From Geomonas agri (GTDB lineage: Bacteria > Desulfobacterota > Desulfuromonadia > Geobacterales > Geobacteraceae): a DNA stretch of 64,000 bases. The notes under the pieces are model-generated. The model was given only the letters and a program-made list of their open reading frames with translations, made no database searches and had not been told where the DNA came from. Every line of letters begins with the position of its first letter. The stretch's first letter is position 1. A program made the translations under genes and the position numbers. Below are positions 3,449 through 9,961 of this stretch, in pieces. The stretch lies in NCBI RefSeq assembly GCF_020179605.1, contig NZ_JAINZO010000001.1, forward strand, positions 1,524,799-1,588,798, read 5' to 3'.

Positions 3449-5494
3449 TTAAGGCCGGTCCAGCATCTCCCGTACCTTCTTCAGCAGGACCATCGGTTTC
3501 ACCGGCTTCATGACCAGTTCGGCTCCTTCGTCGAGATCGCTCCTGCTGCGGATGATGTCGGCCGTGTAGCCACTGGTGAACAGGATCCTGGCATCAGGCT
3601 GGTATTCCCTGATGGTCTCGGCGGCCTCCTTGCCGTTCATGACGGGCATGATGATGTCCATGAGCACCAGCTTGATAGCGGGATTCTCCTTGAACCTTTG
3701 CACTGCCTCAAGTCCGTTGGCGGCGTGGATGATGTCGTAGCCGTACTGCTTGAGGATGGAGGAAACCAGGTCGAGGACGTGCAGATCGTCCTCGGCCACC
3801 AGGATGGTCTCGTTGCCGCGTACGTCAGGTTCTGCAGTCGCGGTGCTTTTTTCCGGTTCTGCGGCTTTGATGGCGGGAAGGTAGACCCTGAAGGTGGTGC
3901 CGATACCGGGCTCGCTGTAGACATTCACGAACCCCTTGTGCTGGGTGATGATGCCGTACACGATGGCGAGTCCGAGCCCGGTACCCTTGCCCACCACCTT
4001 GGTTGTGAAGAAGGGATCGAAGATCTTCTTGCGGGTGCCCTCGTCCATCCCCTGCCCCGTATCCGAGATGGTAAGCATGGCGTACATGCCGGGGGTACCG
4101 AAGCCGTGGGCGTGGACGAAGGCGGCGTCGATTTCGTGGTGCTCGGTCTCGACGAAGAGCCGCCCTCCCTTGGGCATCGCATCGCGGGCGTTTGCCGCCA
4201 GGTTCATCAGCACCTGCTCAATCTGCCCACTGTCCACCACGGCCCAGAGCCCCCCCTCAGCCAGAGAGGTGGACAGGGTGATGTCCTCGCCGATGATCCG
4301 CTGCAAGAACTTCTCGACCCCTTTCACGATGTCGTTGAGATTGGCGGGGGCTGCCTTCACCTCCCCTTTACGGCTGAAGGCGAGCAGGCTTCGGGTCAGG
4401 TTGGCGGCCCGGTCTGCCGCCGCCGAGATCTGCATGACCTTGTCGCGGGCGGGGTTGTCGGGCGGCAGGTCGAGCTTGAGCAACTCGCAGTACCCGCCGA
4501 TGACGGTGAGAATGTTGTTGAAGTCGTGGGCCACCCCGCCGGCCAGCACCCCCACCGCCTCCAGCTTCTGCGAGTGGCGCAGCTGTTCCTCGAGCTTCAT
4601 CCTCTCGGTGATGTCGAGGGCGATGGCCAAGAGGCGCTGGCAGCCGTCCACGGTGATACGTTGACAGTAGTACTCTCCCTTAAGGGTCCTACCATCCTTG
4701 GCGTGCAGTGTAACCACGGTTCCGGCGACATGCCCCTCCTCCTTGAGCTTGTCGAGTAACGCTTTCCTGTCGGCCGGGTTGATCCAGCCCAGCGACGTCG
4801 ACGCACGCCCGAGCACCTCTTCACGACTGTAGCCTGAGAGTTCCACGAACTTGCGGTTCACGTCGAGGAAAACCCCCTCCTCCATGTCCGTGATCACCAT
4901 GATGAGCGGAGCGCTGTCGAATGCCTTGTGGAACTTCTCTTCGCTCAGACGCAGCGTTTCCTGGGCCAGTTGTCGTTCGGCTATCTCCTTTTTCAAAAGC
5001 TGCGCCTGCTCCAGGAGGGCTTCCTGGGCCAACTGGCGCTCGGCCACCTCGTGCTCGAGGCGGTGACTTTGCAGCTTGAGGGCCTCCTCCGCCCGCTTGT
5101 GCTCCAGGATGTGGTCCCATTCGCGCAACGCGCGCTCGACGATACGCGGCATGGCATCGAAGACCTCCGGCATCTTGACCACGTAGTCAATAGCGCCTGA
5201 CTTCATCACCTCTACCGCCACCTGTTCGCTGCCGTGCGAGGTCATCATCACCACCGGCGCTATGTTCGCGGACTGCGCCACCAGGTCTCCCCCCTTGCCA
5301 TCGGGAAGGAGGTAGTCGGTGAGCACGATGTCGTAATTCTTGCTACGGATGCGGTCCAACGCCTCCTTCACCGTGGCGGCCACGGTCAGCTCGTACTGCC
5401 CGGACAGGTCGCTGAATCCCCGCCGGATCAACTCCGCGTGGGCATCATCGTCCTCAACGACAAGTATCTTCTTTACCGGATAGGCAGTACCCAT
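3449..5494 (-). CDS. Hybrid histidine kinase: receiver-PAS-HisKA-HATPase-receiver
   Basis: This is a soluble 681-residue protein with no membrane segment. Its N-terminal receiver (9-125) has phosphoacceptor Asp60 (LTDYLLPD). A coiled coil with two similar AERQLAQE(A/T)L units follows (150-182), then a PAS domain (185-297), a dimerisation helix with His323 in GGVAHDFNNIL, a HATPase (DTGQGM, GTGLGLAIVYG) and a C-terminal receiver with Asp613 (LVLMDIIMP). Receivers at both ends suggest integration of another kinase's signal. It is first in the minus-strand set and ends 33 bases before the heme-c kinase. Upstream, a 267-base gap separates it from the divergent phnD-like operon. Confidence 0.88.
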   Translation of the reverse strand: MGTAYPVKKILVVEDDDAHAELIRRGFSDLSGQYELTVAATVKEALDRIRSKNYDIVLTDYLLPDGKGGDLVAQSANIAPVVMMTSHGSEQVAVEVMKSGAIDYVVKMPEVFDAMPRIVERALREWDHILEHKRAEEALKLQSHRLEHEVAERQLAQEALLEQAQLLKKEIAERQLAQETLRLSEEKFHKAFDSAPLIMVITDMEEGVFLDVNRKFVELSGYSREEVLGRASTSLGWINPADRKALLDKLKEEGHVAGTVVTLHAKDGRTLKGEYYCQRITVDGCQRLLAIALDITERMKLEEQLRHSQKLEAVGVLAGGVAHDFNNILTVIGGYCELLKLDLPPDNPARDKVMQISAAADRAANLTRSLLAFSRKGEVKAAPANLNDIVKGVEKFLQRIIGEDITLSTSLAEGGLWAVVDSGQIEQVLMNLAANARDAMPKGGRLFVETEHHEIDAAFVHAHGFGTPGMYAMLTISDTGQGMDEGTRKKIFDPFFTTKVVGKGTGLGLAIVYGIITQHKGFVNVYSEPGIGTTFRVYLPAIKAAEPEKSTATAEPDVRGNETILVAEDDLHVLDLVSSILKQYGYDIIHAANGLEAVQRFKENPAIKLVLMDIIMPVMNGKEAAETIREYQPDARILFTSGYTADIIRSRSDLDEGAELVMKPVKPMVLLKKVREMLDRP

Positions 5495-5761
5495 AGGGTC
5501 AACTCCTACATTCCATCGATTGAGGTGATCTTTCTTATGCCACGGGCTAGTTTACTACCAATTTCTGCCTTGTGTGCTTTCAGGAGCACTTTTTTTGATC
5601 TTAGCTCTGTCATAGCTCCAGACTATGCAGAGAACCAGACTAGCACTCACACTCTATGCAAGAGTGTCTCGAGCACTGTGCAACACAAATTATATGAAAT
5701 AACTTAAAGCTTTGCCCGGGTTCTACCGAAACGGGAGAGAGGACGGTCTAAGGGGGGTCTT
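5495..5761. other. Divergent intergenic region between the two signalling operons
   Basis: This AT-richer gap separates the hybrid kinase gene from the plus-strand phnD-like operon and must hold both promoters, though I see no clear -35/-10 pair. It contains a small inverted repeat, ACACTC-TATGCAA-GAGTGT (about 5650-5667), a possible operator. I looked for a c-di-GMP (GEMM) riboswitch and did not find its conserved core. Confidence 0.4.
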
Positions 5762-6589
5762 ATGAGGAAAGCGGTACTTCTGTTGAGTCTATGGGCGACT
5801 ACGCTGCTGTTTAGCGTCCCCCCTTGCTATGCGGCACCCCTATCCATAGGGGTCGCCCCCCACACCAGTGCCCGCATCATCTTGCAGATGTACCAACCGC
5901 TGCGCCAGTACCTCGAAAAAACGTTGGGGCGCGAGGTGGACGTGGTCACCGCACCGGATTTCAACGACTTCGTCCGGCGTGGCCTGACGGGTACCTATGA
6001 CATCGCCATTACGACCTCCCACCAGGCCCGGTTACTGCAGACAGACGCGGGCTATATCCCCTTGCTGACGTACCAGGCTGACTTCCGTTCCGTTGCGCTG
6101 GTGGCCAAATCCGGGCCGACAAAGTCCGCGGGCGACTTGAAGGGGAAAGAGGTGCTGGGGTTGAGCGCCACCTCCCAGGTCACCCTGTGGGGGCAACGCT
6201 GGCTTGACGAAAACGGGATCGACGCCAGGATGAAGTACGTGAGCGCCTCCGACAGCGTGGCCCAACTGGTCGCGGCAGGCGAGGCGGCGGCCGGCTTCAC
6301 CTCGCTCGCCAACTACCAAAAACTTCCCGACCCGCTGCGGGCCCAACTCATGGTGCTGGCCCAAAGCCCGGTGATGCCGGGCAGGGTGTACCTGCTGTCT
6401 CCGCGCCTGGCCGGCCAGCGCAGGCAGATCGAGGCAGCCCTTTGGTCCTTTGCGGCCACTCCGGAGGCCCGTAAATATTTTGATGAGAACAAGTTGCAGG
6501 GGTACCGCAAGCTGAAAGCGAAGGAGCTCGCCTCCATGGACGCTTACGCGGCCGAAGTCAGAAAGGTGATCAAGGGGAAAACGCCGTGA
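5762..6589 (+). CDS. PhnD-like periplasmic substrate-binding protein (orphan, sensor-associated)
   Basis: This 275-residue protein has a signal peptide cleaved near CYA-AP (residue 24) and a type-2 periplasmic binding fold of the phosphate/phosphite/phosphonate (PhnD, Phosphonate-bd) class: IGVAPHTSAR start, PLRQYLEKTLGREV, YDIAITTSHQARLL, LKGKEVLGLS. No ABC permease or ATPase is nearby. Instead its stop overlaps the GTG start of a membrane histidine kinase by 3 bases (GTGA), which implies coupled translation and a sensory role, presenting a ligand to that kinase. PhnD-type domains are known as the sensor part of kinases such as TtrS. The ligand cannot be deduced; phosphonate is not implied. 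Confidence 0.85.
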   Translation: MRKAVLLLSLWATTLLFSVPPCYAAPLSIGVAPHTSARIILQMYQPLRQYLEKTLGREVDVVTAPDFNDFVRRGLTGTYDIAITTSHQARLLQTDAGYIPLLTYQADFRSVALVAKSGPTKSAGDLKGKEVLGLSATSQVTLWGQRWLDENGIDARMKYVSASDSVAQLVAAGEAAAGFTSLANYQKLPDPLRAQLMVLAQSPVMPGRVYLLSPRLAGQRRQIEAALWSFAATPEARKYFDENKLQGYRKLKAKELASMDAYAAEVRKVIKGKTP

Positions 6590-9015
6590 AGAGGATCTCG
6601 CCGCGCCAAAGCGTACGGGGGCGCCTGCTGCTCCTCGCCATCGGCGTGGAACTGGTCATGCTCACCCTTTTGGTGGCCAACAGCCACCGCCTGCTGAACA
6701 ACGCCATGACCGACCAGGCGCGCTGGCAGGTGCAGCAGATGATGCCGGTCCTGAGCGCCGCGCTCAAGGCCCCACTGGCCCAGCGCGACTACGCCACCAT
6801 GCAGGCCATCGTTGACGAAAGCCGTGCCACCGAGGGGATCGACTACGTCGTAGTGGCCGACCGGGAGGGACGAATGGTCGCCCTCAGCGGCTGGAACAGG
6901 GACCAGAAGCTGCCGCAGGAGAGCAAACCGCTCTCACTGGTAAAATTCAGCACCACCGACCGCTACGACGGCGTCATGCCCATCAACCAGAGTGGCCAGC
7001 ACCTGGGCAGCCTGCACATGGGGCTTAACCTCTCCCGGGTGATCTCTGCCCGACACACTCTGCTCACCCAGGGGGTGGTGATAGCGACAGTAGAACTCGT
7101 GCTCTCGTTCGTCATCCTCGCCTTGATCGGACTGTGGCTCACCCGGCATCTGACCGCTCTGGCGACCGCGAGCCTGCAGGTGGCCTCCGGAAACCTCTCT
7201 CCCGCTCCCCTGCACGAAGGGAAGGATGACATGGGGCAACTGGGGGCTGCTTTCAACCTGATGTCGCGGGCCATCTCCGAGCGGGTCAGCGAGTTGACCG
7301 CTGCCAAGGAAGCCGCCGAAGCGAGTGAGCGGGCCAAATCAAAAAGCGAAATGAGGCTGCGCGCCATCACGGATTCGGCCAATGACGCCATCCTGATGAT
7401 GGACGCCGCCGGCGCAGTCAGCTACTGGAATCCCGCCGCTTGTCGTATCTTCGGCTACTGCGATGACGACGTCATGGGCAAAGACTTGCACGAACTGCTC
7501 GCACCGAAACGCTACCATTACGCCTTCCGGTCCAGTTTTGCCAAGTTCAGGGAGAACGGTATGGGAAACGCCATGGGCAGAACCATCGAGGTTTTCGCCA
7601 GGCGCAAGGACGGCCGCGAGATCCCCGTGTCGCTCTCGTTATCCGCTGTGGTGCTGGACCACGAGTGGCACTCGGTCGGGATATTACATGACATTTCCGC
7701 GCAAAAGCAGGCGGAACAGGAACTAAGGGAGGCCAAGGAGAAGGCCGAGGCAAGCGAGCATGAGAAGTCCGAGAGCGAGGAGCGCCTCAAACTGGTCCTG
7801 GACGGCAGCAACGACGGTTTCTGGGACTGGGACGTCCCCAGCGGACGCATCGCCATCAACCGGCGCTGGGCGGAGATACTGGGATACTCACTGGACGACT
7901 TCCCGGACCCAACAGTAAAGGACTGGGAAGACAAGGTGGACCCGGAGCACAAGGAGCACGCCTTCCAGGCAGTAAGCCGGTGCCTCGAAGGCGAGACACC
8001 CAACTTCGAAGTCGAGTACCGGATGCGCACCAAGTCCGGCGGGTTGGTGTGGATCCTGGACCGCGGCAAGGTGGTGGAACGTGGAGCCGACGGCAAACCG
8101 GTGCGCTGCGCCGGGACCCACACCAACATCACCGTCAGAAAGGAAACGGAGGCACTGTTGCACCAAAATGCGCTGAGGCTGGAGCAGGAGGTGGCCGAGC
8201 GTCAACTCACTCAGGAACTGCTGGCCGCGAAACAGGACCAACTGGAGATGCTGAACCTCTCCCTGCGGCAGCGCGTGGACGAAGCGGTGACCGAACTGCG
8301 CCAGAAGGACCAGGTGCTTATCTCGCAAGGCCGTCAGGCCGCGATGGGCGAGATGATCGGCAACATCGCGCACCAGTGGCGCCAACCCCTGAACGCGCTG
8401 GCCATGGTGGTCAGCAACCTGCAGTTCGCCCAGCGCGACGGCACTCTCACCCCCGATTACCTTGATACGGAGGCGGCTACCGCGCAGCGCCTGATACAGA
8501 AAATGTCCACCACCATAAACGATTTCCGCGACTTTTTTAGCCCCGACAAGGAGAAGGTTCCCTTCTCTGCCCTGCAGCAGATCGAGCAGGCGGTGCAACT
8601 CGTGGAAGCTGCGTTCAAGAACAGCAACATCTCCATCATCCTGGACGCAGGCAACGACTGCACCCTCTACGGATTGCCCAACGAATACTCGCAGGTGCTA
8701 TTGAACCTGCTAACCAACGCACGCGAGTCCATAGCCGGCGCCGGGGTAAGGCATGGCGGCATCACCATTAGTATCGAGGAGCAAGGAGGAATGGGGGTGG
8801 TCCGGGTGCGTGACAACGGCAGCGGCATTCCAGCGGAAGTGCAGGACAAGATCTTCGAGCCCTACTTTTCCACCAAGAGCATGGGGACGGGTATTGGCCT
8901 CTATATGTCCAAGATGATCATTGAAAAAAACATGAGCGGATCGCTAACGGCAGGTAATGTCGAGGGCGGCGCCGAGTTTGCCATCAAGACCCCGCTTGCG
9001 GAGAGAAAGCCATGA
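6586..9015 (+). CDS. Membrane PAS histidine kinase coupled to the PhnD-like protein
   Basis: The protein has 809 residues from a GTG start. Membrane segments at about 13-33 and 162-186 enclose a periplasmic sensor of about 125 residues; then come HAMP (187-240), PAS (255-375), a second PAS of the PAS_3 type (400-520), a coiled coil (525-580), a HisKA-like helix with His596 in [14 protein letters not shown], and a HATPase (N box [11 protein letters not shown] boxes DNGSGI and GTGIGLYMS). The HQWRQPL variant is common in sensors with periplasmic partners. Both ends overlap neighbours by 3 bases (GTGA, then ATGA into the receiver-GGDEF gene), so the three proteins look like one pathway: ligand, kinase, c-di-GMP output. 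Confidence 0.9.
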
Positions 9016-9961
9016 ACGACGCGCAGCAGGCCCGACAGTGTCTCAAGAACATAACGGTACTCTATGTCGAGGACGAGGACGAAGCCAGGGAGCAGTTCAC
9101 CCAGTTCCTCAATCGGCTGGTGGGGGTGCTAATCACGGCGAAGGACGGCGCCGAGGGGCTGGCGGCATTCCACGAGCACAAGCCCCAGCTGATCATCACG
9201 GACATCCAGATGCCCAACATGGACGGCATCGCCATGTGCCATGAGATCCGCAAGGTGGACAGCTCCGTACCGATCATCATCCTGACGGCGTTCGAGCAGA
9301 TCGACTACCTGAAGGAGTCCATCAACCTGCACGTGGACCGCTACCTCACCAAGCCGGTAGAGGGGCAGATGCTCTACGATATCCTGCTCGACTGTGCGCG
9401 GCAGTTGGAAGAGGACACCGCGTTACACAACGCCGCCAACAGTGACCCGCTCACCGGCTTGGCCAACAGGCGCGAGCTGATGAATCGATTCGCCGCCGAG
9501 AAGAACAAGGCCGAGCGGCACGGCACCCCGTTGTCGCTGCTGATTGGGGACATCGACCACTTCAAACGGGTGAACGACAATTATGGACACCTGGCGGGTG
9601 ATCAGATCCTGAAAGCGGTGGCGCAAAACTTCAAGGCATGCCTGAGGAGGGAGGATATCTGCGGGCGCTGGGGGGGGAGGAATTCCTGGTCATTCTCCCC
9701 AACACTGAAGCTGAGGCGGCCGTGAGGGTGGCGGAAAAGCTGCGGGAGGCGGTGGCCTCGATGGTGACACCGTGGGAACGGGAACGGCTGACGGTGACCA
9801 TGAGCCTGGGCGCGGCGCCCTTCCGCCCCGGGATGGGGCTCGAAGAGTGCACCCGGCGCGCGGACGAGGCGCTCTACCAGGCCAAGAGCGGAGGGCGTAA
9901 CCAGGTGGTGCTGGCAGGGACGCAGCCCCAGCCAGTTCCCGCTACGCCAGTAGTCTCCTAA
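9012..9961 (+). CDS. Receiver-diguanylate cyclase, frameshifted at the GGEEF active site
   Basis: Frame 1 (9012-9725) encodes a receiver with phosphoacceptor Asp64 ([12 protein letters not shown]) and the first half of a GGDEF domain ([28 protein letters not shown]). At an 8-G run (9670-9677) it reads RWGGRNSW and soon leaves the fold. The rest of the domain, [11 protein letters not shown]...SLGAAPF...[13 protein letters not shown], lies in the -1 frame and ends at 9961. One more G, or a ribosomal -1 slip on G-GGG-GGG, restores RWGGEEFLV and gives a 316-residue protein with an RRED inhibitory I-site five residues before GGEEF. Without it the cyclase is dead, though the receiver survives. The start overlaps the kinase stop (ATGA). 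The stop overlaps the convergent trpE stop. Sequencing error, phase switch, programmed slip and pseudogene are all possible. Confidence 0.85.

Follow-up and report, generated by a model that had tools for sequence, protein, structure and literature searches.

The window, by which we mean the whole 64,000-nucleotide stretch of DNA that was analysed, holds a tight operon of three overlapping genes. The first encodes a PhnD-type periplasmic binding protein, the second a sensor kinase whose gene start overlaps the stop of the binding-protein gene, and the third and last a receiver-cyclase whose reading frame changes in the middle of its catalytic domain. The features that matter here are the following (positions are those of the window):

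5490 to 9957, forward strand: segment of ~4.5 kb, absent between the same neighbours in 8/8 sister genomes opened (alignments).
5762 to 6589, forward strand: periplasmic binding protein of the PhnD family (phosphonate/oxyanion-type), encoded by the first gene of the operon (Pfam PF12974, E 3.9e-46; relatives).
6586 to 9015, forward strand: sensor histidine kinase with a periplasmic sensor, HAMP, two PAS, HisKA and HATPase domains (Pfam).
9012 to 9725, forward strand: zero-frame open reading frame with the receiver and the N-terminal half of GGDEF, followed by 15 out-of-frame residues and a stop (open reading frame, Pfam).
9645 to 9656, forward strand: RRED inhibitory-site codons AGG AGG GAG GAT (read from the sequence).
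9670 to 9677, forward strand: G8 tract across the active-site glycine codons (read from the sequence).
9677 to 9961, forward strand: C-terminal half of GGDEF in the -1 frame, from GGEEF to the end (open reading frame, Pfam).

Read from the ATG at 9012, the zero frame of the receiver-cyclase gene runs for 237 aa and ends at a TGA at 9723-9725. The tract at 9670-9677 is exactly eight G long, the zero-frame codons across it are CGC TGG GGG GGG AGG AAT, and a G_GGG_GGG heptamer lies at 9671-9677 in the phase of the zero frame. The -1 frame belongs to an open reading frame at 9638-9961, which encodes GGEEFLVIL and then the remainder of the GGDEF domain. Pfam finds a single GGDEF domain divided between the two frames: the zero frame matches profile positions 1-81 (E 4.4e-27) and also contains an intact receiver domain (E 2.4e-26), and the -1 frame matches positions 78-161 (E 1.8e-15). 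The RRED motif at 9645-9656, which we take to be the inhibitory site (I-site), stands five residues ahead of GG, and when both frames are combined all the catalytic and inhibitory-site residues are present (RRED, GGEEF and the C-terminal part). An earlier note on this DNA had described a receiver-GGDEF gene that changes frame in an eight-G run, an intact RRED I-site five residues before the active site, a zero frame reading TGG GGG GGG with a slippery heptamer in phase, and a -1 frame that restores GGEEF; on all four points we arrive at the same description.

No second lesion is seen in the downstream half up to 9958, and pseudogene-type decay beyond the break was not found, this half being open to its end, matched by Pfam and having a GC3 of 0.81 versus 0.86 in the N part. 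The gene thus shows a single lesion without visible decay, so the break is either young or not real; a young null allele is a possible status of the gene. Its response-regulator kin are presumably the PleD/WspR-like diguanylate cyclases, which it resembles by its receiver and GGDEF domains (Pfam), by an RxxD motif five residues before GG[DE]EF and by the presence of the N and D residues presumed to recognise the base. It differs from them by the frame break at the glycine codons: in the assembled sequence, no single reading frame holds a complete GGDEF domain. Across the 29 other GGDEF loci examined in the same genome (L320, L321 and L333 gave no recognisable motif), the cyclase motifs contain at most 6 G in 26 of 26 cases, and no other cyclase active site found in this genome has a G run as long as the G8 tract.

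The whole operon is peculiar to this species so far. Alignments to sister genomes end at about 5480 and restart at about 9960, and about 385-722 bp take the place of the ~4.5 kb; these are the eight loci opened out of 18 other genomes of the genus, with one genome per species. Searches for kinase orthologues gave none, either among 47 other family genomes (threshold 1e-150) or among 394 others from the phylum (1e-120), and for the N part of the cyclase the best among the matches listed in the 18 other genus genomes cover most of it at ~40% identity, with some shorter matches reaching 50%. The binding protein has a wider kinship: relatives 57-67% identical occur in 22 other genomes of the order and one of 33% in one more (141 genomes searched at 1e-30), and a 60% paralogue exists in its own genome. 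At 16 of the 20 binding-protein loci opened (L370-L389, own paralogue included) the sensor part of the kinase is also matched, with longer kinase matches at two of them, L375 and L389. A receiver plus GGDEF match after the kinase was found at none of these 20 loci, and at L387 such a match comes before the binding-protein/kinase pair (N part 35% identical). Thus, the PhnD-type binding protein and the kinase's sensor part recur jointly in the order while kinase and output parts differ. The segment, seen so far in this species alone, couples a sensor module known from the order to a receiver-cyclase. The GC content of the segment (0.608, versus 0.603 in the left flank) equals that of its host. 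Gain of the segment by this species would be a simpler account than its loss in every sister.

Pfam places a gene for a PhnD-class binding protein beside a sensor kinase gene, an arrangement like that of AioX-AioS-AioR, in which an oxyanion-binding protein, a sensor kinase and a response regulator are likewise encoded by three adjacent genes with the same three roles. The AioX-type binding protein is described as related in fold to PhnD in the accessible part of PMC5908839. The difference lies in the output: a cyclase here, a regulator required for the expression of oxidase genes there.

How unusual is a long G tract at a cyclase active site? Two surveys, one of 395 genomes of the phylum (50 places, all classified, 13 of them cyclase-like) and one of 49 genomes of other groups (7 places, 6 cyclases), yielded 19 rows with an active-site tract of at least eight G; 16 are in frame (for one, L199, N follow soon after the motif and the in-frame status refers to the part before it), two are decayed remnants and one, the tract at 9670-9677, is a clean break. 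The rows L395 and L396 are identical in sequence and thus represent one event at most. The remaining places fall in unrelated genes such as DnaK or are non-coding in that frame. The two remnants, L219 and L340, come from two congeneric genomes of the class and represent one shared, decayed PAS/GGDEF remnant joined at a G tract, which is eight G long in one genome and nine G long in the other.

These rows bear on which base was lost. The stretch CGCTGGGGGGGGAGGAATTC could descend from a nine-G R-W-GGEEF or, by loss of a base upstream, from an eight-G R-L-GGEEF; an earlier reading had overlooked that CGCTGGGGGGGGAG is also compatible with such an upstream loss, G8 being the intact length in R-L-GGEEF, which is the less likely origin. 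In that second case the ancestral codons would have been CTG GGG GGG GAG and the lesion would lie just outside the G tract. An in-frame eight-G tract after an L, M or V codon is in fact the usual form elsewhere, with 13 rows (L199, L208, L212, L342, L343, L348, L352, L354, L390, L392, L394, L395 and L396), and L381 also shows one. However, all 13 of these rows read GGD and none reads GGE. The genome's own cyclases speak the same way: an aromatic residue precedes GGEEF in nine sites out of nine, whereas L, M, I or V precedes GGDEF or GGDDF in 13 of 17 (Fisher p 0.0005 for the GGEEF contrast), and all 13 sites with L, M, I or V in front read GGD. This residue pattern favours W over L. A paralogue in the same genome (L331) reads GRWGGEEF with the codons CGC TGG GGA GGG GAG GAA TTC, close to those of the broken cyclase, and the three in-frame nine-G tracts in other genomes (L205, L341 and L393) all read RWGGEEF. 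In a wider set of relatives L-GGEEF does occur, in 4 cases versus 12 of W-GGEEF, and a non-aromatic residue stands before GGEEF in 10 of 12 non-aromatic cases. Slips in a nine-G tract are also far more frequent than the loss of one base outside a repeat. We prefer the nine-G ancestor with W to the eight-G one with L, although it is not proved, and a lesion outside the tract appears very unlikely.

The break could also be absent from the cell. If the isolate in fact carries nine G and an intact cyclase, the eight-G reading would be an assembly or base-calling error, and a clean single-base break at a G homopolymer in an otherwise conserved gene is the classic pattern of such errors. The portion of PMC3711429 consulted indeed expects singleton frameshifts validated by BLASTp to reflect sequencing errors and not indels. 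Moreover, this assembly contains 10-N gaps flanked by poly-C/G blocks of up to 27 G. These blocks look like short-read poly-G artefacts, which would make G tracts near poorly covered places unreliable.

The behaviour of other homopolymers argues in the opposite direction. There is no N in the 64-kb window. We examined 131 distinct G/C runs of at least eight in the same genome (for G, all 69 places with at least nine were covered and G8 runs were sampled) and found 66, other than the cyclase's own and 31 of them at least nine long, in a constant coding frame, that is, in the same coding frame within 60 nt on both sides of the run. The other 65, the cyclase gene's own run included, were excluded because they are non-coding, lie close to a gene edge or change frame; seven of these have same-strand coding in different frames on either side, namely the cyclase's own and six others, which when opened all resemble gene junctions. 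A codon-usage Viterbi scan of 864 kb of the genome (800 kb plus the window) gave a similar picture, with 150 same-strand frame switches, nine of them within 40 nt of a homopolymer of at least seven: the cyclase's own and eight others (four at G/C runs, four at A/T runs) that resemble gene junctions when opened. In total, 17 places other than the cyclase's own (13 G/C, four A/T), those just named included, were opened by hand, and all resemble gene junctions or in-frame runs near the start or end of a gene. Sequencing error had been named beforehand as the simplest alternative. It stays open, but a generally error-prone assembly does not agree with 66 coding runs that keep their frame: the assembly is not generally error-prone at long G/C runs, a single consensus error is possible, and the run statistics leave room for an error rate of a few percent per run. 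On balance we regard an error as a serious contender, if a rather unlikely one; between the two, mutation is somewhat likelier, a judgement based on one assembled sequence of one strain.

As an observation on the assembly itself, the poly-C/poly-G blocks lie at L160:8321-8422, L275:1502-1681 and L166:8454-8513, apparently between genes. Two of them adjoin runs of ten N and one is without N, and they are probably short-read scaffold artefacts.

Could the tract be a switch? Slippage between eight and nine G could reversibly toggle c-di-GMP synthesis while the receiver is retained, and a tract of eight G is long enough to slip, at a site where any change kills catalysis. The decayed remnant, with its differing tract lengths in L219 and L340, shows that the length of such a tract can vary but is no evidence of switching, and it carries other lesions. 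Besides, active-site tracts of at least eight G are rare and otherwise in frame (16 of 19 rows), and long coding G runs are common in this genome without breaks, so that nothing points to a group of switching genes. Nor is the tract retained in related genes, the operon being absent from the sister loci opened and the genome's own 26 motifs stopping at 6 G. The likeness to homopolymer-tract phase variation by slipped-strand mispairing is that of a coding G tract whose length sets the frame; the differences are that the tract lies inside catalytic codons, that no second length variant is known and that there is no conservation. A search of the literature, of partial coverage, found no case of a cyclase switched by a coding tract, and a term search found no literature on Geomonas cyclases; the phase-variable c-di-GMP enzymes named in the text at hand of PMC11868660 are phosphodiesterases under invertible promoters or epigenetic control. 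The earlier note had called the cyclase broken or switched: broken at GGEEF by the G run it is, as assembled, but switching finds no echo in the other eight- and nine-G rows, 16 of 18 of which are in frame. A built-in switch at the G8 tract is thus possible but unsupported, and we consider reversible phase variation improbable. There is a slim chance that the active-site glycine codons double as a contingency tract, in which case a minority of cells would toggle c-di-GMP while the receiver would still take phosphate from the kinase.

The same letters could act on the ribosome instead. With programmed -1 ribosomal frameshifting at G_GGG_GGG, or with transcriptional slippage there, the gene as it stands would yield some full-length cyclase, and the ingredients recall the -1 frameshifting of dnaX and IS elements: an X_XXX_XXX-type heptamer in the right phase (9671-9677), tandem AGG codons before it and an upstream Shine-Dalgarno-like motif, AGGAGGGAGG, which ends 16 nt upstream of the heptamer. 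Unlike in those systems, the heptamer is common in intact genes here, being found in the zero frame in 105 of the 128 in-frame coding G-runs (at least seven G) examined in the genome, where frequent slipping of ribosomes would be costly. No stimulatory RNA structure above shuffles was found downstream: the 77 nt at 9684-9760, modelled without pseudoknots, fold at -28.2 kcal/mol versus a shuffle mean of -29.0 (z 0.25; 114 of 200 shuffles fold as well). Apart from the decayed remnant, the rows and loci inspected include no split-frame homologue, and no homologue with a conserved site was found. Furthermore, according to the section seen of PMC4066793, UUN and AAN codons are on average more prone to shifting in E. 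coli than GGN codons. The proposal that the slippery heptamer serves as a frameshift signal is therefore not borne out, and we hold recoding to be extremely unlikely.

Apart from any role in recoding, the tandem AGG AGG of the RRED I-site creates a strong Shine-Dalgarno-like stretch inside the gene, at 9645-9656.

To explain these observations we propose, at roughly even chances, a sporadic contraction by one base of a nine-G tract encoding RWGGEEF, giving a null cyclase. The ancestral gene would have encoded a normal diguanylate cyclase with a phospho-receiver, serving as output of a binding-protein/sensor-kinase/response-regulator operon that this species probably acquired, as opposed to one repeatedly lost by its sisters. 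Its two glycine codons would both have been GGG and, following TGG, would have formed a tract of nine G. A replication slip of one base would then have left eight G in the sequenced isolate, and we take the change to be present in the isolate's DNA. The product would keep its receiver and end inside the catalytic domain, and should therefore make no c-di-GMP; this loss of synthesis is a prediction from the truncated sequence.

If the break is real, the isolate has a signalling operon whose output enzyme is off, and genes of this kind should be checked before c-di-GMP capacity is inferred from gene counts. If the length of the tract varies within the population, the cyclase would be phase-variable, with the switch lying within its own active-site codons. 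As things stand, the case is an ordinary one.

Elsewhere in the same genome, another GGDEF domain is matched in two pieces, at G000:C1:533236-533742. Here both pieces lie within one open frame of 743 aa, so this domain may hold an in-frame insertion.
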